This document shows positions 4,858-57,990 of a stretch of DNA of 64,000 nucleotides, piece after piece (positions within the stretch are counted from its first letter, which is position 1; every line of letters begins with the position of its first letter). The translations under genes were made by a program, and so were the position numbers. A model generated the notes under the pieces. That model was not told the DNA's origin. It saw nothing but the letters and a program-made list of their open reading frames with translations, and ran no database searches. The stretch comes from Thuidium tamariscinum (taxonomy: Eukaryota; Streptophyta; Bryopsida; Hypnales; Thuidiaceae): assembly GCA_947034885.2 (NCBI GenBank), contig OX344753.2:24754347-24818346 (forward strand), read 5' to 3'.

Positions 4858-5873
4858 ATGCCGTTTGCGAAACTGAAAGTGATGATGAAGGAAACTACAC
4901 AGGTGATCCCAGTTTCCCTCACACCGAAGCACGGCTACTTCCTCACCAACTTGGACCAGAACATCGCGGTGAACGTGCGCTCCGTTAAACTACGTTCCCA
5001 ACGCCCAGGATGACAAGAAGCACGAAGATTCAGCGTGGGTGTTGAAGGAGACGCTCGGGAAGCTGCTGGTGGAGTTCTACCGCATGGAGGGAAGGCCGGG
5101 CATCAGCTCGGAAGGCAAGCTGCAGGTGGAGTGCGAGGATCAAGGGGTGGTATTCGTGGAAACCACGGCGGCCAATTGTCTGGCGGGGTTCGGGGAGCTT
5201 TCTAGTCCGGCGCCGTTCATGCGGCAGTTAGTGAACGATGTGCCCAGCGCCAAAAACATCCTCGAAATGACGCCGTTCATTGTGCAGGTAACATTGCCAT
5301 GGCCATCGTCTAGTTGTAATCCTGCTCCCAATCCTCTGTTTTTGGCGATGGTTTCGAATCTCAGCTATGGTGATTGTTTGGGTGTGGGCAGTAACATGTT
5401 CACAGTGAATCACAGCATCCCCGTCTCCCCACTTTGCTAGTGGCATTGGAAGGAACTGGTTGTTCCTGGTCGCACATTGCATTCCAGTGGCTAGTCCTCT
5501 TGCCTAATCGAGTGAACTCCACACTTCGGAATAACGAGAGAGTTTCGCACTTCCGAGGTCGGGTAACCAGTCCGATGACGTTTGTCGAACTTCCTCAAGT
5601 CACAGATGTGAAACCCATGACATGATACTGAGCGGAATGTCTGAAACCCAGTGTTCTGTCAAAATGCAGGTGACGACATTCCAGTGCGGAGGCTTCGTGC
5701 TGGGCCTTCACAACCACCACTGCCTGATGGACGGTCTCTCCGCGAACGAATTTCAAGCTCGCGGCGTGGCCATCACGCACCCCCCGCTGGACCTTCACAA
5801 AAACCAGTCTTCAGAGCGAAGACAAATTTGGTCATTAGAACTCAAATTTACAGCACCAATAATCGTAGAATGA
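4858..5873 (+). pseudogene. BAHD acyltransferase (HCT-like), frameshifted and truncated
   Basis: BAHD enzymes move acyl groups from CoA thioesters to alcohols or amines, for example hydroxycinnamoyl transfer in phenolic metabolism. Exon 1 (4858-5287) starts MPFAKLKVMMKETTQVIPV, the typical acyltransferase opening, and contains YRMEGR-like text. An intron (5288-5669, GT-AG) sits at the usual BAHD position inside VQ|VTTF. Exon 2 carries HHCLMDG (5715-5735), the HxxxD catalytic motif. Defects: one extra base in about 4986-4993 shifts the frame just before NYVPNAQDD, and the frame stops at 5871 after about 210 codons. The family is normally about 430 residues. The whole C-terminal half, including DFGWG, is absent, and the sequence turns AT-rich from about 5810, so the break looks like a deletion or insertion junction. 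Confidence 0.85.
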
Positions 5874-8012: not shown

Positions 8013-9158
8013 TCAAGGACCGTGTCCTTTGCCACGAAGGCGTCCAATGAATTTTGAGACACCCCACTTTCGCTCAAGTCCGCTCACCAAAGGCTGAGGC
8101 ACGCCCCGGTTTTTAAAGACGGCTTCAAGAAAACTCTGAATGTCTCCAGATTTCATTTTATCACAGGCATCGAAATCAAGGTTCGTAAAATAGGCTTCGG
8201 CGCACGCTTCAGCTTCCCTAAGGCCGAAATCGCCACTCGCTTCAGCAGGAACCAAACCGTGAATGTGTTCACGTTCCCTATACAAAATGGTTGCAGCGTC
8301 TTGCAAACAGAATGGAACGAACTTGGTTGCTTCCTGAGGATTTCTCATACTTGGGAGAACCTCAACATAACTTAGAGGAACATCCCAATACGAACACAAA
8401 AAATTAAGGATGAACTCCTTACTCCGGTCTACTGAATATTCCTTTCTTCTTCTAGCAGCAATACCAACAGGAATGACTATTCCATTTGATCCCAGTTGCT
8501 CTCGTATATACCCAATGATCGTCGCCGCGTTTTTGATTTCAGCTTTTGTTTTAACCTCCCAACAAGTTCGCCAAAGCCTATTCTTCGCATCAGCATCCTG
8601 TAAGTCAACTTTTATGATCAAATCCTCCACGCGTTGGCTATCGTCAAAGAAACGCTGCGTCCACCGCACTTTATTCTCATACAGTTCAGTTCCAGTCACT
8701 AGAATTTGTACCGGAACTCCATTAAGCTCCTTGGTGATGTCCCCCCATTGCAAGGCATTCGGAAGGTCATCCAGCCTCTCGCAGACATACCACACCATAT
8801 GCAACCTCGAGCTACTATTCGGGAACGGCGTAGCGTCTTCGGGAGAATAATACAGGTCTTCACTCCAAGCAGCCTTCACGTTCGCGTGGTGCCAGCGTTT
8901 GTTCCTCACTTTCACAAAGCTCATAATGTCCGTGTAGTCAGCTTTACTCCTCGCTGCAACTCGGTACAGACACATAGGCGGCGAAATACTAACACTTTCT
9001 TTCAAGAGAATCTGATCTTCCATAAGGTGCCCTGAATCCCCACATATCGACATGCACGTCGCCTCCACTAATTTCGCATTCCCTAGGACAAGGATTCTCA
9101 ACGCTCGCGCGCCAGGCTGGAAAGTTCTTCTACCGTTCTGCGCCAGAGCAATTGAACA
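8013..9158 (-). other. Pseudo-GTPase exon of kinase gene copy 1
   Basis: Exon 3 alone: 381 codons plus stop, exactly the same length as in copy 2. The open frame extends a few codons upstream to an ATG at 9170, but that ATG lies in the intron. The matching intron stretch in copy 2 differs by one base in length and lacks it, so it is not a separate start. After the G-like core come helical stretches IGYIREQLG and CAEAYFTNLD, and a basic end, GKGHGP. Confidence 0.7.
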
Positions 9159-11315
9159 CTGAATTAGCATAACTTAGCTACGTACAGTATCCGAAGAAAT
9201 AACCTGGATTAGTAAAGCACACTTCTAGGAATAAACGTGGGAGAGGTCATAATACTATATTGAACAGTAAATTGTGTCGAGTTCTCTTTGGCTAAGAGGG
9301 AAAATATTGTTATTCATAACACTGTATTGAAAGCGAGTCCTACGATAAACCATAAAGCACTCTTGGACGTTATTAATGTAAAGAGTAAAACTTAGCACTA
9401 TGTCCAATAACTTTCTTGAGCCTCGAGGCTCATAGAGATAATCTAATCCATAGCGCTCGCTCAAGCCAAAAAGGGATGCGACTTTAGGCATTATCGAAGA
9501 AATGTTGGCTCTCGATTGTTGTAGGTGGATTATCCTATCAAAGAACTCAAATACTCAAATAAACTTCATGACAGCACGCGGCACGGAAGTACATCTCTAA
9601 ACAAAACACGGGTAGAAATTGCACTGACCTCCGGAGAACTTGTTCCAGCTTGATCTCCTTCGGGAACATCACCTACGTCAAGAGATTTGTCAGCACTAGG
9701 CAGAGAGCATTTCCCGGCAGTGACCATCATCAAAAGAAATTGCGACTCTAAGTTGGTGCGATTGATCCCTAAAAGTTCAAAGTCGATGAGAACCCCACAG
9801 ATCTCTCATGATACCGATTCATTTCATAGAAAATGCAAGACTCAGTGGAAGTTCGCATGAGATGTACTCACTTGTAAGAAGCAAGGCCTTTAATTTTCTC
9901 AATTTCTCACAAATTGCAAAGAACGAAGCAGGGCGTTTGGAAGGCTCTGGATCCCAACACTCTTTGAGAAGAGTAGTTAACTCAGCAGGACAGTCTTCAG
10001 GCAAGCTAGGTCTACCGCCTTTCTTTACGAACTTACGTAACCCTTCCATTCCAAAAGCGCGTATTGTTTCTTCGTAAGGCTCACAGCCAGTCAAGATGCA
10101 GCTGCAAGTTACACCAAACGAGAACATATCTGCCTTCAACGATTCCCCGCGGATTTTGTCTTCGCCGGGTTCGGGTGCGCCAGTCATCTCCGGAGCTCTG
10201 TACCTTGTAGTTCCAACATTTGGGGTGTGTTTTGAGGACTTTTCAATTGCTGCACGCACTTTTGCCAGCCCAAAGTCAGCCACTTGTAATTCCAACACTG
10301 AAACGTCTTGTCCACTAACCTGCTTTACCAGTATATTCTCCGGTTTTAGATCTCTGTGAGACACACGTTGAGTGTCACTCAAGTACTCCATGCCTTCACA
10401 TACTTGCAAGATCAGATCTACAGCTTCAAGGGGAGGCACAGAGGACCCTGTTGATACGGACTTCAAATAATCTCGTAAATTCATTGAGAGCTTGGGCATC
10501 ATGAGAAACTGCTCATCCAGATTCTTGTGAAAAAGTATCAAGTTCACAATATTTGGATGACAGCATTTCTCCAGAATAGCAACCTCCGTGTCCAGAGTTC
10601 CAGAGGTGACTGATGGAGTTTTGATGGCAAATTTGGTTTTCTTCCACTTGAAATTGTAAACTTCACCAAATCCACCCCTCCCAATAGGTTGACCTTTCCT
10701 TTCGACTGGTGGAACTCCAAGGGTGTCATCATAAACCACTGGGTCTTTCTTGTCCTGGAGCCGACGCAGGAGGGTCGCACAAATTTTCTGGTGATCGCCA
10801 GGCTTTAGAACATGTTTTCTGAGCACGTCTTTGAAATCTCTGAGATCCTTCTCTACTATGATCCTGGTACCCTCTACAAGTGACCTGACCTTCTCCTTCC
10901 AATCAAATCCTTCAAGCTTTTCGGAGGCCACTCGCGCACCTTTGGCATCCTTTACGCGTTCAATCAAGAAGATGCACCAATCCAACTCTACGTGGTACTT
11001 GATGAACCTTTCTTTATGGGCAGAAACTTTGATGGCTGCTAAAACAAAATCACTATCCCACTTGTAGCAACAATCATCTCGAAAGGTCTTCACTCTGAGT
11101 ACCACTCGGTAAAGTTCACGGAACACTTTGCTATACTGCGCTGGATGCCTAAAAGATCTGTCCTCTTCCTCCGCCAAGTCCAATGTCTCCATTACCTTCT
11201 CTAGCAGCCGTGAGCATTGCCCTCGGTAAACTTTGATCGATTCTGCAGAAGGAAATTTCGCTGTCAAAACTCGCGCCTTCCGCAGGTCCTCTGACATGTT
11301 TGCCAGCTTCGACAT
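8013..11315 (-). CDS. Protein kinase fused to degenerate P-loop GTPase-like module, copy 1
   Basis: Predicted spliced gene: exon 1 11315-9872, micro-exon 9672-9629, exon 3 9158-8013; 877 codons from ATG 11315, or 871 from ATG 11297, the only Met shared with copy 2. Residues 1-200 are mostly helical with no recognised domain. The kinase follows: glycine loop GRGGFG 212-217, FAIK Lys232, Glu244, HRDLKPEN from 320, DFG 347-349, APE 374-376. All catalytic residues are present, so it should be active; the look is TKL/Ser-Thr-like. Exon 3 encodes an Era-like G-domain relative: a beta strand running into LGNAKLVEAT (Walker A decayed: Gly to Val, Lys to Glu), RLHMVWYV at 614-621, and ILVTGTEL where TKxD is expected. 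Nucleotide binding is doubtful. Introns are 199 and 470 nt with good donors (GTGAGT, GTCAGT). Exon 3 could instead begin at 9137, also in phase. Function is unknown; a receptor-like or immune role is inference only. Confidence 0.8.
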
Positions 11316-25759: not shown

Positions 25760-27927
25760 GTGCACCCACAGTACGGAGTATAGACAGAGTGTCAGTGGGT
25801 CCATCGGAAGCTACCCGTAGCTCTGTCTGCAATCTGCAACCAGTCAAGTGGGCTCGATTCAGTCTGTCGGAGCGCCCCGACTGTGGCTACGCTTACTGTG
25901 CGGTGCCGGATTGCCGGACTGGTCGTTTTGTGTTCGTAGCTTAAGCTTCATTATCCCAATCCCCTTCGTAGTATGTATTTCGAAACCATCTGAACTTATA
26001 AACTTGAAGGGCCAACTTCCATGTCGAGAAGGCCGGGGCCGGATCCCACCGATGACCGGTGAAATGGGGGCTCCACGTATTGTGGAATCGCTTTTATTAG
26101 ATGCAGGTAGACCCGGCCCAGCTTTGACTTTCGACTCCTGAACGCGTTATAAAGTCGCTAAGTCGAATGTGCCCCTCTTCTTTGTCAAGAAGTGATTTTG
26201 CATTGATGCGCAAGTGTGCCCTGCTGCCTACCTTAGTATCACCTTTGACGAGGTGGGCGGATCTGTGTCCGTGGTACTGACAAGTGCTCGATCATTCGTG
26301 TTTGCCGGCAACTGGAAGTGGGGGGCTCGGTCAGTGCAAGCGTACTGAGCAGTCCATTGGTGCAGGGGAAGATTTGATTGCCGGTGAGGGATGGCGGAGT
26401 CGTTTGCGCAGGTACGTAGCTTGTGCCCGCAATCTCGGTCACCGTTAGATGTGTCAAGGGTTTGAATTCTCAGTTTGAAGCTGCTCTAGATATGTAGGCG
26501 ATAGGGCGTATGTGAGTGAATGCCTGTGACGTTGTGAATTATCCCGCAGTAGAGTATAGTCATTCTCTCCATCAGTGTTTTAGTAGTATATTGTGTTGGC
26601 ACCGTGAATTTCCTACCTGTTTGTGAAGAGATTTTGGCTTGCTCCGGTTGGCGCCAAAGTGGTCCTCTTACCAGATGGATATGGAGATAGTTTTAGTTTG
26701 GGGAAGGTAAAACTATGTATTAGGTATATTGAAACGTCGATGTCGGTAAATGGGTGGAGATTCACGGTATTTGCACTTTCAAGGCGGGCGCGGGCGCTTG
26801 AAAACCTGAACCTATTCCAGTCCTAGTTTCGGTTGAAAGCTTTGTGCAAACGAGTGCTACAATTTTGGGGCTATGAATTGAAGTTACGAGTTCTGTCTTA
26901 GGTTTTGAAGATTTTTGCAGATGGGTGTCACGGTGGAGCTATGAATTCCACCGTTAAATCGTACTTCAGTGTGCACACCTAGGGCACAATGCCAAGTCCA
27001 GTGTACAAGGCTACCATGAAACTGTCGCATTCGCCAGTTGGAAGGCGACAAAATCCCATAGTTCATTTCCTGATTCGATTGAGTTGAACAACTTGGGCAT
27101 CATTTTTGATAACCCTCTTGAGCTTCCTGGCTAGCTCCTGACCATTTTCCAATCCGTAATCTCTAAGTAAGGCCTATTTCAGTAGAGGTAGGCTAACAAG
27201 AAAGCATTGAATATGAAGTGCATAGTTGTGTCTTTGTATCTTTCCCTCTCTAGTATTATGGTGTCTTCTTTTGTAAACGCGTGATTAAATAGTCCTACAA
27301 TGTGAAAGTTAAACATCGGAACGGGAATAGCATCCCATGCCAGCCACTCTTCTGGCTCTACTTTCTCGAAACCTTGTCCGTAACACTGTTGTCGTTGTAT
27401 GGACACGGATGGAGTCCATGGGCCTGCTAGAATGCTGGGCCAGTGTAGATCTCTTCCGATCTTCATATGGTAAAATGAATCACGGTGTTGATGCTGAAGC
27501 CCAGCTAGGTGTGTGTAGAAGCTATTTTCCTCCAATTCCCATATTGCACTGTTTTTTCTAGTACCGAGTCCAGTTTTTTCTCTATTTTTTACTCTAATTA
27601 GAAATTTTATAGATTCTTTCACCAGGTTTTTGATACCTTAAAATTACAACCGATCTTTTTCCCAATTCCACCAGCCAACAATGAACTAACCAGCGGTTCT
27701 CCCCGAAACTCTGAACATTGGTGTGAATAATTTATCCCCACAACACAGTGGAGAAGCACTTCAATGTTGTTCCTGTTACCCGAGTGATCAGATGCCCTAT
27801 TGTCAATTTCGTTACATATGCTTGATTCCAGCGCCAAAAAATGTGACATACATCTTTAGGAGGATGCCAATGACCGAGTATATTTCATTTCAGTGTTGTG
27901 CACTGAGCGTATTCTGGTGATAGGTCT
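25760..27927 (+). promoter_or_regulatory. Upstream region and possible leader of the amino-acid transporter
   Basis: More GC-balanced than the DNA on either side, which suggests a transcribed or promoter region. No open frame has a recognisable motif; the 97-codon frame at 25848 opens with GTG. Donor-like CAG|GTAGAC (26103-26111) and several acceptor-like sites would allow a spliced 5' UTR, but I cannot fix exon borders. No distinctive promoter element was identified. Confidence 0.35.
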
Positions 27928-30900
27928 ATGCTCAGTGAATGGGATGTCCACGCGACTCGACACAAAGCTCTAGATAAAGACTACCGCGAGTATAGATTTA
28001 CATTTCAGGCAGCACGTCCTGAAAATGCCCAAGTAGTAGAAACTGCGAATTCAAACGAAATTGATGCCTACGTGATTTTGCTGCAGAATGGTGAAGCTAC
28101 TCCCCATCACAGAATCCGCATCCGACGAGCAGACGATGATGACGGTATTCCAAAGACGTCCAATTGGTGGACAGCAGCTGCCTACAACATCACCGCCATC
28201 GTTGGCCTTGGGGTGCTTGGTCTGCCGCATGCGATGGTGTTCCTCTCCTGGTTTGAATTCGTCTTGCACCTCAAAATCCTTCTCTGAAACTTGTATGAAT
28301 ATGTTAATTTTGTCAGTTTCAGAATATTGGTTCCAAGGAAAATTTCTTATTTTAAAGATTTGAGCATGACTTTGAATGAGACGTTATTTGGGCAAACATC
28401 ACTTCGTTTGCCATCCTTAGTATGGACTGTGGAGTGTGTAGGGTTAAGAAGTAACAATAAATTTTGGAAGTGGTGTTCATTGGTGCAAGTTTGATCTTAG
28501 ATTCTCGAATACACTAGGAGCTCGTCCCCCCCCAAACCCATCATCCGTCCAGAATTCGATTCCCAAGAACTTCTAAGGATTAAACTTTGAATTCCTGAAC
28601 TAAACTAAGACTGAAATTAACTCTGAAACCCTGCATCGTCGAGTGCATTCCCAAAATAAGAGCATTCACCGTACACACCGGCAGACGAGATTGCACGTCC
28701 GTCTCCATTCCAACAATTCACAAAAACGAACCCTAACCCTAAAATTTGACTTTGATTCCAACTCAAAATCTTCATTTATACGAGACTATAAAGTGTGCCA
28801 TGGAATTCCAGGGATCGCTTCCGTGCTGTCTAATGCAAAACCTTTAATCCTGTGCAATGTCATTTTTCTGACCGCCCTGATGTTTGCTTTCCTTTTGAGA
28901 GCTAAGTGAAACTTTAGGCATGAATCTATATAGTGTTTGGTCTTGCCAACAGGATTGCAATTATCCTGGTCTAATCACCAGTCAGATTTTGCCATAGATG
29001 GCGGTATGTCTAAGCTGAGCGTATGCCTCGACTCAGAATTTTTGTGTGTCGTTGCAGGGGTGGCCTGGCGGTAATGGCTCTCACATGCTTCATCACTTAT
29101 TTAACATTGAAGCAACTGGTGGAACTCCATGAAGTAGACCCTGGGAAACGGTACAAGACGTACCAAGATCTCGGGGATCGAGCATTTGGCGGCAATTGGG
29201 GTCAAAGAATTGTTCTGCCGATGCAAATGGTTGTAGAGGTCAGTCTGGATGTGCTCTTCACCATTGCTGTAGGAGAGGCTATGATCCGAATACTGGGAAA
29301 TTGCCAAGTGCACATATTTGTTTGGTTTGTAGCATTCGGTGCCATCCAAATTGCCCTCTCTTGCAGGTTGCCCTATTATAGCTCCATCAGATGGATTGCA
29401 GTGGTTGCAGCAGTCATGTCATCTTGGTAAGCTTTTACTAGCCATGTATCCATGCAGTACAACAGGATGAGTTTGACCATGACTTTAGGTACGTGCACCC
29501 AAAATCACCACTCGAAATCAATACCCTGTGTACTGATTTTAGGTGGCGATTTCTGGGTGCACAGAACTTAGATTTGTTGGAATATGTTCTGCATCAATGT
29601 TCAATGTTGCTTGAAGTCCTAAAGTTTAAACATTCCAAAAAGATTTGAGCAGTTGAGGTTGATATGCATCAAATCCATTCTGTCACTTGGATTTTGATTT
29701 CGGTTGTTGCGATGCTCACAACTTCCTCTCCTTGATTGACAGCTATTCAACAATTGCGTGGATCTCGCTTGTGTCAAGCGGTTTCAAGCATCGTGGTGAT
29801 GCCAAGTATGGGGAACCTGAGAAACTGCCAGCAAACAACGTCGGTTTCCATCAAAATCAAGTGGACTTAGATGAAGTTGATCATGTGTTTCAAGCCTTCA
29901 ATGCAATTGGAATCATTGCGTTTGCGTATGCTGCGCACAATGTTGTTTTGGACATTCAAACCGAGTTACCGTCGCCTTCGGAGGAGGCGATGATGAAGGG
30001 AGTGAAGTTCACGTATCTGGTGGTAGCACTTTGCTACTTCCCCATGGCCATTGCGGTCTACGGTTTGTATGGCAACCAAGTAAGCAACAATGCTTTGGGT
30101 TTCATGGTGGGCAGAGTCCCACGAGGATGGGTGATCACAACCAACATCATGTTAATCACTCATCTTGTTGGAAGTTATCAGGTAACTCACCCCACTTGAA
30201 TTTTGAGAATTTTGTTTCCTAAATCCAACAAACCTCAATTTTTTCTTGTCATTTTGAGGATCTCATCTATGAATTATGCTGCTTTTCACAAGTTAAGAAA
30301 CACATGTTGTGGACATTAATTGAATATGTTGAACACAACCAAGATGAAACTTATTTTGTTATGAGCAAAGATCACAATAGCATAATGCTTTTGATGGACG
30401 AATTGATTTTGGATGGTGACCCCTGCTGTGACAATATTTCATTTATAGGATGGATTTTCCTATCATGATCATAAATCTGGCATTACTATTGAATGCTAGA
30501 ATTCTTTGGGTATGCAACTCAATTAAATATTACAAATAGAGGATCTTGTCAATAAATACATGAAAAACAATTAATTTTTCATTTTCATTGTTGTCAAACT
30601 AAAATGAATTGTAGCACTTACGCATTGGATTCTAATGGATTAGAATCATTGCATATAAAAAATTGTTGTAAATTGCATACTTTTGCAAGGATTCTTTTCT
30701 AAGAATGACTTGATCAAATTTAAATACATATGCCATTTATTCTTGCAGATTTTTGCCATTCCTGTATTCAAGCTTTTACAGGTCAAAATGAAATATGACC
30801 AATATACTGTTCGAATAGTTTATATAAGTAAGTACAATACTCCTCATGATTGGAGTTTCAAAATTTGTTGATTTTGTGTAAGTGATTTGCTATTATGTGG

Positions 30901-54355: not shown

Positions 54356-55501
54356 TCAAGGACCGTGTCCTTTGCCAAGAAGGCGTTCAACGCATTTCCA
54401 GAAGCTCCGGCTTCGATGAAGTCCATTCACCAAAGGCTGAGGCACCTCTCCGTGTACAAAGACGGCCTCAAGAAAACCGTGTGCGTCTCCAGATTTCATT
54501 TTATCACAGGCATCGAGATCCAACCTCGTAAAATAGTGTTCGGCGCACGCCTGAGCTCTCCCGAGGACGAACTCGGCGCTTGCTTCCGCAGGAACCGAAC
54601 GGAGATGTTCATGTTCCCTATACAAAATGGTGGCAGCGACTTGCAAACAAAATGGAAGAAATTTGGTTGCTTCCCGAGAATTTTCCCTAAGAACCTCAAC
54701 AAAACTATTTGGAATCTCCCAATACGAAATCAAAAAATTAAAAATTAAATCCTTACTCTGGTCCACTGAGAATTTCCTGCTTTTACTAGCAGTAAGACCA
54801 CGAATGACTATTCCATTTGGTCCCAGTTGCTCTCGTATATACCCAATGATCGTCGCTGCGTTCTTAATTTCAGCTTTTGTCTTAACCTCCCAACAAGTTG
54901 TCCAAAGCGTATCCTTCGTTTCAGCATCCTCCAAGTCAACTTTTAGGATCGAATCCTCCTCGGGTTGGCTATCGTCAAAGCGGAACCGCTCCTTATACTT
55001 CAGGATCCTCTCATACCCATCAGTTCTTGTCACTAGTATTTGTACTGGTACTCCATTAAGCTTCCTGGTGATATCCTTCCATTGCAAGGCATTCGGAAGC
55101 TCATCCAGCTTCTCGCAGACATACCACACCATATGTAACCTCCGGCTCCTATTTGGGAAAGGTGTTTGGTCGTCGTTGGGATGATTTAAGTCTTCCCTCC
55201 AAGCAGTCTTCAAGTTATCTTGGCGCCAGCGTTTGTTCCTCTCTTCCACAAAGCTCATAATGTCCGAGTAGTTTGTGTAGTCAGCTGTACTCCTCGCTGC
55301 AACTCGGTATAGACGCATAGGCGGCGAAATACTCACACTTTCTTTCAAGGGAATGGGACCTTCCGTATGGTGTCCTGAAGCCCCACATATCCACATGCAG
55401 GTCGCTTTCACTAACTTCGCATTCCCTAGTACAAAGATTCTTAAAGGTCGAACGCCAGGCTGGAAAGTTATTCCACCGATCTGCGCCAGAGCAATTGAAC
55501 A
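54356..55501 (-). other. Pseudo-GTPase exon of kinase gene copy 2
   Basis: 381 codons plus stop. The open frame runs 24 bases upstream of the splice acceptor, but from a GTG, so there is no independent start codon. The C-terminus GKGHGP is identical to copy 1. Confidence 0.7.
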
Positions 55502-57990
55502 CTGATTTAGCCGAAACTTAGCCACGTACAGTATCCGAAGAAATAACCTGGATTAGTAAAGTATACTTCGAGGACTAACACATGGGAAAGGTCATAATCT
55601 GTATTGAACAGTAAATTGTGTCCAGTTCTCGAGGGAAAATATTAATATCCATGACACTTTATTCAAAGCGAGTCCTACTAGAAAACACTCTCGGACGTTA
55701 TTGATTTAAAGACATTAGAGAAAATATGGACTCTCCACCTCTCCGGAGGGTCACCAAGGTTTGACAAACCAGTCTATATACACAGCCCTACGGAGCTACG
55801 GAAAGGGCAGAATCTTTGACAGAGCTGCTTGACAGAGGTGCGTCAGCTTGTGTGAATATCTTGGGTATGTATGAGTTTCTTGCCTTTTTTTAATTCCTGA
55901 TCTATCAATGAAGGGTAACTATTGCATGCTCCTCCATTTAACTAATGGTTCTTTGTGATTCAATGCACTGATAATTGCAAAACTGACATGAGCGACAATA
56001 GGGAAAAAAATTTGTGAAGGGGAAATAAATGTTATCTAAAGGGTCCCCTCCAGCACTTCTTAGCAGCCCTCCAGAGAGTCCATATTTTCTCTAATGAGTA
56101 AAACTAAGCACTATGTCCGGTATCTTTCTTGAGCCTCGAGGCTCATAGAGATAATCTAATCCATACCGCTCGCTCAAGCCAAAAAAGTAATGCGAGTTTA
56201 GGCATGATTGAAGAAATGTTGTCTTTCAGTTTTTGTAAGTGGATTATCCTATCACAACACTCAAATCCTCGAATAAACTTCATCGCTGCACGCGGCACGG
56301 AAGTACGTCTCTAAACAAAACACGGGAAGAAATTGCACTGACCTCCGGAGAACTTGTTCCAGCTTGATCTCCTTCGTGAGTACCACCTACATCAAGAAAT
56401 CTGTCAGCACTAGGCAGCAATCGTTTCTCAATAATGTCCCATCAACAAAGGAGCTGCGACTCTAAGTTGATGCGATTGATCCCTAAAAGTTCAAAGTCGA
56501 TGAGAACCCCACAGATCTCTCACGATACCAATTCATTTCATAGAAAATGCAAGACTCAGTGGAAGTTCGCATGAGATATACTCACTTGTGAGAAGCATGG
56601 CCTTTAATTTTCTCAGTTTCTCACAAATTGCAAAGAACGAAGCAGGGCGTTTGGAAGGCTCTGGATCCCAACACTCTTCGAGAAGAGAAGTTAACTCAGC
56701 AGGACAGTCTTCAGGCAATTTAGGTCTACCGCCTTTCTTTACGAACTCACGTATCTCAGAACCGAAAATTTCTTGGTAAGGCTCACAGCCAGTCAAGATG
56801 CAGCTGCAAGTTACAGCAAACGAGAACATGTCTGCCCTCAACGATTGCCCGTGGACCTTGTCTGCGCCAGGATCAAGAGCCAACTCCGGAGCTATGTACC
56901 TTGTAGTTCCAACATTCGGAGACAGATTCGAGGACTTTTCAATCGCTGCACGCACTTTTGCCAGCCCGAAGTCAGTCACTTGCAATTCCAACACTGAAAC
57001 GTCTTGTCCACTCACCAGCTTTACCAATATGTTCTCTGGTTTCATATCTCTGTGAGACACACGTTGAGTATCACTCAAGTACTCCATGCCTTCACATACT
57101 TGCAAGATCAGATCTACAGCTTCAAGACAAGGCAAAGGAGATCCTTTTGCTATTGACTTTAAATATTCTAGTAGATTCATTGAGAGCTTCTCCATCATAA
57201 GAAACTGCTTCCCATCTGGATTCTTGTGAAACAGTATCAAGTTCACAATATTTGGATGACAGCATTTCTCCAGAATAGCAACCTCCGTGTCCAGAGTTCC
57301 AAAGTTGGATAATGGAATTTTGAGGGCAAATTTGGTTTTCTTCCACATAAAATTGTAAACTTCACCATATCCACCCCCTCCAATACGTTCCCCTTTCCCT
57401 TCGACTGGAGGAACTCCAAGGGCGCCATCATCAACCACTGAGTTTGTCTCCTCCTCAAGCCGACGCAGGAGGGTCGCACAAATTTTTTGGTGATCGCCAG
57501 GCTTTAGAACATGTTTTCTGAGCACGTCTTTGAAATCGCTGAAGTCCTCCTCTACTATGATCCTCGTATCCTCTACAAGTAACCTGATCTTCTCCTTCCA
57601 ATGAAATTCTTCAAGCTTTTCAGAGGCCACTGGCGCACCTTCGGCATCTCTTACGAGTTTAATCAAGAAGATGCACCAATCCAACTCTACGTGGTACTTG
57701 ATGAACCTTTCTTTATGGGCCGAAACTTTGATGGCTGCTAAAACAAAATCACTTTCCCGCTTGTAGCAACAGTCATCTGCAAAGGTTTTCACTCTGAGTA
57801 CCAATCGGCAAAGCTCACGGAACACTTTGCTATACTGTGCTGGATATTTACGAGATGCTTTCTTCCCTATTTCCAATGTCTTCAATAACTTCTCTCGCAA
57901 TCGTAAGCATTGCCCTCGGTGAAGTTTGATCGATTCTGCAGCAGGAAATTTAGTTGTCAGAGCTCGCACCTTCCGCAGGTCCTCTGACAT
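54356..57990 (-). CDS. Protein kinase fused to degenerate P-loop GTPase-like module, copy 2
   Basis: Paralogue of 8013-11315 with the same structure: exon 1 57990-56586, micro-exon 56386-56343, exon 3 55501-54356. The start is the ATG at 57990, because the upstream in-frame codon at 58008 is TTG here; that gives 864 codons. In numbering from 58008 the kinase has GGGGYG 210-215, Lys230, Glu242, HRDMKPEN from 319, DFG 346-348 and APE 373-375, all intact. The GTPase-like exon has LGNAKLVKAT (the Walker A lysine is kept although Gly is Val), a WYVCE strand, and ILVTRTD, close to a TKxD guanine motif. It is therefore less decayed than copy 1 at both sites. Intron 1 is 199 nt as in copy 1. Intron 2 is 841 nt because of a 384-bp MITE. 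The open frames, phases and splice sites of both copies support each other. Confidence 0.8.
55713..56096. mobile_element. 384-bp MITE in intron 2 of kinase gene copy 2
   Basis: Perfect 23-bp inverted ends (left 55713-55735 beginning CATTAGAGAAAATATGG; right 56074-56096 ending TATTTTCTCTAATG). Copy 1 at about 9384-9372 has the uninterrupted sequence TAAAGAGTAAAAC. The target duplication is either GA, or TA inside the palindromic CATTAATG if a small deletion occurred in copy 1. The interior is non-coding. Confidence 0.88.

Follow-up and report, generated by a model that had tools for sequence, protein, structure and literature searches.

The window, a stretch of 64,000 nucleotides from Thuidium tamariscinum (C5:24754347-24818346 in the 363-Mb, 19-contig plant assembly that we searched), holds two copies of a gene, A and B, in which an N-terminal region and a protein kinase are followed by a micro-exon and a C-terminal module, here called X. 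Table 1 lists their parts together with the other features of the window.

Table 1. Features of the window, with positions counted from its first nucleotide
Feature	Position	Strand	Description
Open frame	4973..5437		Match to Transferase family PF02458, 3.1e-15
Gene A, exon 3	8013..9137	-	Tail module X, 374 residues, without recognised fold; stop codon 8015-8013
Gene A, intron 2	9138..9628	-	Phase 0; 491 nt up to the acceptor favoured by comparison
Gene A, micro-exon	9629..9672	-	44 nt, coding (S)DVPEGDQAGTSSPE
Gene A, intron 1	9673..9871	-	199 nt, GT..AG, phase 1
Gene A, exon 1	9872..11297	-	N-terminal region (approximately residues 1-200) and protein kinase domain; Pfam Pkinase, 5.8e-40
Amino acid transporter exons	27907..30199	+	Between copies A and B; Aa_trans, best match 1.6e-22
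Gene B, exon 3	54356..55480	-	Tail module X
MITE-like insert in gene B, intron 2	55713..56096		384 bp; ends are 23-bp perfect inverted repeats
Gene B, micro-exon	56343..56386	-	44 nt
Gene B, exon 1	56586..57990	-	N-terminal region and kinase

Exon 1 of gene A ends at a phase-1 donor (ACAA/GTGAGT at 9872, the slash marking the exon boundary), and its micro-exon is preceded by ..GTAG and followed by GTCAGTGC. The reading frame is open across the whole join of exon 1, micro-exon and exon 3, which predicts a protein of approximately 870 residues. Intron 2 is 862 nt long in B versus 491 nt in A. A third copy (L011) with the same structure lies on the same contig about 50 kb away, beyond the window, with identities of 87% in exon 1 and 91% in exon 3. 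Two diverged genes on contig C2 (L012 and L013) have the same exon order, which brings the arrangement of kinase exon, micro-exon and exon 3 to five loci, three on C5 and two on C2. Although identity between the kinase exons of C5 and C2 is no more than 46-50%, the exon 1 donor ACAA/GTGAGT, the micro-exon donor GTC[AG]GTGC and the splice phases are kept at all five. The genome contains seven open frames of module X itself, three of them on C5 and four on C2. Across these loci the micro-exon measures 44, 44, 44, 50, 101, 77 and 65 nt, always 2 mod 3, is free of stops in every case and has an AG acceptor in six of seven. The comparison supports reading the kinase frame and the exon-3 frame as one three-exon gene for one spliced protein; the in-phase join through donor, 44-nt micro-exon and acceptor that the earlier note had proposed is borne out at the five kinase-X loci, as is its claim of identical joins in the second copy (Table 1).

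Comparison of C5 with C2 sequences indicates purifying selection on both outer exons. For A versus L012, dN/dS is 0.30 in exon 1 and, in two estimates, 0.38 or 0.35 in exon 3, and exon 3 has remained open despite 478 substitutions, although 22 stops would be predicted in unconstrained sequence (the count is simple and takes no account of mutation bias). Between A and B the corresponding values are 0.51 and 0.64.

The kinase of exon 1 was previously claimed to be active, and its motifs agree: the catalytic Lys, HRD, DFG and APE, read from the alignment, are present in all five kinase-X copies. Among 872 PDB sequences the top matches of this kinase are 6lba and 6ka4, which we take to be Arabidopsis MLKLs. 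For the region ahead of the kinase, a Pfam search gave no match, DUF1221 included, and neither did a PDB search with the profile of that region alone. A profile built from six pre-kinase regions of this genome placed mouse MLKL (4btf, residues 13-77; E 0.034) second in the PDB, after a splicing factor that is unrelated (E 0.027), with residues 12-87 of 6ka4 at E 4.3. The region is probably MLKL/HeLo-like, to judge from these profile matches.

Comparing the kinase with its own genome (89 kinase frames scored among 678 candidates) sets the five X-partner kinases apart, at 50-100% identity versus 36% for the next frame. The N-terminal region is shared more widely, since 28 of the 84 other scored frames begin before query residue 100; the helical N-terminus of the earlier note therefore corresponds to a region common to many kinases of this genome. 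At least seven of the 89 scored frames have NB-ARC downstream on the same strand, no more than 1.2 kb away (49 of 126 NB-ARC matches were compared), and exon 1 aligns with these seven at 31-33% identity from query residue 29-32 onward. By this homology, exon 1 is a member of a large family of predicted helical kinases that also front NB-ARC genes in this genome. Two further members of the family were seen in passing. Downstream of one kinase frame lies a weak TIR_2 match (L039:2835-3359, minus strand; 0.0055, below the cut-off), possibly marking a kinase-TIR gene, and in a cluster on C8 one helical-kinase gene (L040:3322-5082, minus strand) has no NB-ARC match within 6 kb among those compared.

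Two known kinds of protein offer comparisons. Kinase-NBS-LRR receptors occur in mosses (PMC3352924, PMC3991678), a class that has been called moss-specific (PMC3352924), and the kinase frames ahead of NB-ARC in this genome are in keeping with a moss; for a P. patens NLR kinase, the cell-death response is described as modest and variable (PMC11218826). Like these genes (PNL or Pkn-NLR; PMC3352924, PMC3991678 and PMC11218826), the kinase-X genes place the kinase exon first and a regulatory half behind it and form clustered duplicates, and almost the whole of their exon 1 is homologous to kinase frames that precede NB-ARC in this genome. Unlike moss PNL genes, they carry tail X, and neither NB-ARC nor LRR was found in them. 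The intron phases differ as well: PMC3352924 reports a phase-0 intron after the kinase for PNL and phase 2 for TNL, whereas in kinase-X the intron that follows the kinase is in phase 1 and leads to a micro-exon. The second comparison is with plant MLKLs (AtMLKLs) and the wheat resistance protein Pm13, described as MLKL_NTD plus an active kinase (PMC10951266), which likewise have an N-terminal region (putatively helical in kinase-X) ahead of the kinase; as in Pm13 (PMC10951266), the kinase of kinase-X retains its catalytic motifs. Unlike plant MLKLs and MLKL_NTD-kinases, kinase-X has X as a third domain, and the similarity of its N-terminus to MLKL is weak. A literature search found no kinase or TIR joined to an X-like tail, which agrees with the earlier note, whose author knew of no described family with exactly this order; since no name exists for the family of X, its absence from print is not firm.

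Not all X modules follow a kinase. At two C2 loci (L014 and L015) a TIR exon takes its place (PF01582, 1.5e-30 and 9e-30, respectively), and the chain runs from a TIR exon ending in phase 2 through a 68-nt exon and the micro-exon, entered in phase 1, to X. The in-frame joined length is 614 residues in L015 and 615 in L014. All splice sites are intact in L015, but L014 has lost the AG acceptor of its micro-exon, which makes L015 the more likely of the two to be functional; together with a dN/dS of 0.80 for X between L014 and L015, the lost acceptor suggests possible decay of the TIR-X pair. Their X frames have nevertheless remained uninterrupted across 147 substitutions, a number that in unconstrained sequence should have produced 6.8 stops. 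Broken pieces of X lie on C2 near 36.007, 36.093 and 36.150 Mb. The one at 36.007 Mb (L016) stands downstream of a broken TIR (65% identical, one stop), and for another broken X with stops (L017) neither a TIR nor a kinase match had an E-value below 1.

The TIR exon may derive from a TIR-NLR gene. Beyond the C2 cluster, the five TIR frames that match it best (C3:33662286, C3:7539437, C1:6739559, C1:6747269 and C3:3689605) each have, by eye, an NB-ARC frame about 1 kb or less downstream on the same strand. The TIR-X intron contains a stretch, again found by eye and interrupted by stops, that includes GMGDIGKTTPA, which we take to resemble an NB-ARC P-loop; Pfam searches with two pieces of these putative leftovers gave no match. 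Like TNL genes, L014 and L015 have a TIR exon, a phase-2 intron and a short next exon (the TNL phase being that reported in PMC3352924). Unlike TNL genes, their NB-ARC region is apparently reduced to the stop-containing intronic leftovers, and X follows.

Divergence of X suggests an order of events. For X, dS from L012 to the TIR-X loci is 0.31-0.32 and that separating L014 from L015 is 0.16, versus about 1.4 between C5 and C2. From these values, the simplest history would be that kinase-X is older and that the 5′ end of a TNL replaced the kinase in the C2 cluster. All TIR-X loci fall within that one cluster, so the swap may have been a single event, and at a dS of 0.3 versus 1.4 it is, as judged by sequence divergence, recent on the scale of the family. 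With TIR-X at two C2 loci and at a broken third, X has, by comparison of these gene structures, two kinds of N-terminal partner, kinase and TIR, in the manner of NLR C-termini. NB-ARC-LRR halves are combined with TIR, kinase and other fronts.

These observations are best accommodated, with a probability of roughly 0.55, if the window genes encode an NLR-like receptor, presumably immune, made of the N-terminal region, a kinase, a linker and X as its regulatory or sensing half. Because X is joined to two unrelated fronts through one linker exon, a role for X as regulator of the front is the most economical reading. Each window gene would give a single protein with a possibly MLKL/HeLo-like N-terminal region, a kinase that is catalytically complete by its motifs, a short acidic and proline-containing linker encoded by the micro-exon, and X at the C-terminus. 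At rest, X would keep the N-terminal half inactive by autoinhibition. Once a cue is sensed, X would change shape or assemble, and the kinase (or the TIR in the sister genes) would then signal, probably toward defence or cell death. We would go further only tentatively, in suggesting that X is a new switch or sensor domain unrelated to NB-ARC, which replaced NB-ARC-LRR and has carried at least two fronts (MLKL-like kinase and TIR), making it a second, independent NLR-like architecture of plants. If so, plants have placed at least two signalling fronts on a C-terminal half other than NB-ARC-LRR, which would show which parts of an NLR can be replaced, and gene A would offer a small receptor in which the control of a kinase or a TIR by a regulatory half could be studied.

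A possible, though not probable, alternative is that kinase-X is an ordinary non-immune signalling kinase whose tail serves localisation or substrate binding, with TIR-X as a recombination accident. Most family kinase frames listed have no NB-ARC within 6 kb (with the at least seven above as exceptions among the NB-ARC matches compared), as would be expected of such a kinase, and the lost acceptor of L014 and the possible NB-ARC leftovers with stops in the TIR-X intron fit an accident. An accident would not explain why X stayed open in the TIR-X loci, however, and the clustering and fast evolution of the duplicates, along with the homologous N-terminal half in front of NB-ARC genes, argue against this alternative.

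For X itself, the earlier note had suggested a degenerate Era-like G domain, which would make the gene a kinase fused to a pseudo-GTPase. We consider this unlikely. Its appeal lies in hydrophobic stretches (RILVLG, LHMVWYVC, PVQILVT) that by eye follow one another in the order of P-loop strands, and in a TRTD of copy B at the place of the GTPase [NT]KxD. Against it, none of the seven X proteins has a Walker A (GxxxxGK[ST], G1) or the G4 motif [NT]KxD, and searches of Pfam, NCBIfam, PHROGs, PADLOC and PDB returned nothing significant. Comparison of exon 3 with GTPase profiles, a check akin to the one that the earlier note had proposed, did not help the claim either: hhalign scores were 10.1 against YfjP+YkfA+Era, 12.6 against YfjP+YkfA and 17.0 against Era, all within the range of 60 column shuffles (means 14.9-15.0; maxima 23.8, 22.2 and 21.4, respectively), in a test made weak by a profile Neff of 1.9. 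The Era score lies between the mean (14.9) and the maximum of its shuffles. This outcome is an absence of support for a GTPase rather than proof of another fold. An AlphaFold2 model of X from the two window copies had a mean pLDDT of 34.2, too poor for a fold search, and with no family match, no GTPase motifs and no usable model, X stands without a recognised fold. Pfam searches of exon 3 found no LRR or NB-ARC, and none of the 126 NB-ARC matches listed falls in C5 24.7-24.9 Mb or C2 35.9-36.3 Mb. A search of the same genome for more remote X relatives, with E up to 10, gave 17 matches, every one at the C5 and C2 loci already described, while 116 pattern matches in viral contigs and 57 in bacterial and archaeal genomes yielded no confirmed relative.

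The remaining question is whether kinase and X could belong to two adjacent genes. The intron sequences differ in what they contribute here: between C5 and C2, intron 2 is 42-47% similar (ungapped columns) versus 55-62% for the flanking exons, and intron 1, at 57-59%, is about as conserved as exon 3, so that its divergence by itself is no argument for the join. The exon-3 frame has no in-frame Met upstream of its acceptor before a stop at five of seven loci, and in none of the seven does its first internal Met come before residue 29, which places it past the first conserved strand and leaves X ill-suited to be a separate gene. A kinase ending within intron 1 beside an independent exon-3 gene is therefore very improbable: in A, B, L012 and L013 read-through of intron 1 does add a short open tail that ends in a stop, and exon 3 has one upstream in-frame Met each in A and L011, but that tail differs between A and L012 whereas the donor is conserved, five exon-3 frames have no such Met, the micro-exon is in phase at all seven loci, and exon order is conserved at all five kinase-X loci.

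For the single spliced gene, comparison also settles on likely ends. Of the junctions first proposed for gene A, 9872/9672 and the micro-exon end at 9629 stand; the start of exon 3 at 9158 is less likely. Position 9158 is a second in-phase acceptor with no counterpart in the C2 genes, and L012, L013, L014 and L015 all have their exon-3 acceptor at the position matching GCGCAG/AAC of gene A, which favours 9137 as the most likely first base of exon 3. Gene A has an extra in-frame ATG at 11315, a position that reads Leu in copy B (frame LSKLANMSEDL), so the start common to both copies is 11297 in A and 57990 in B.
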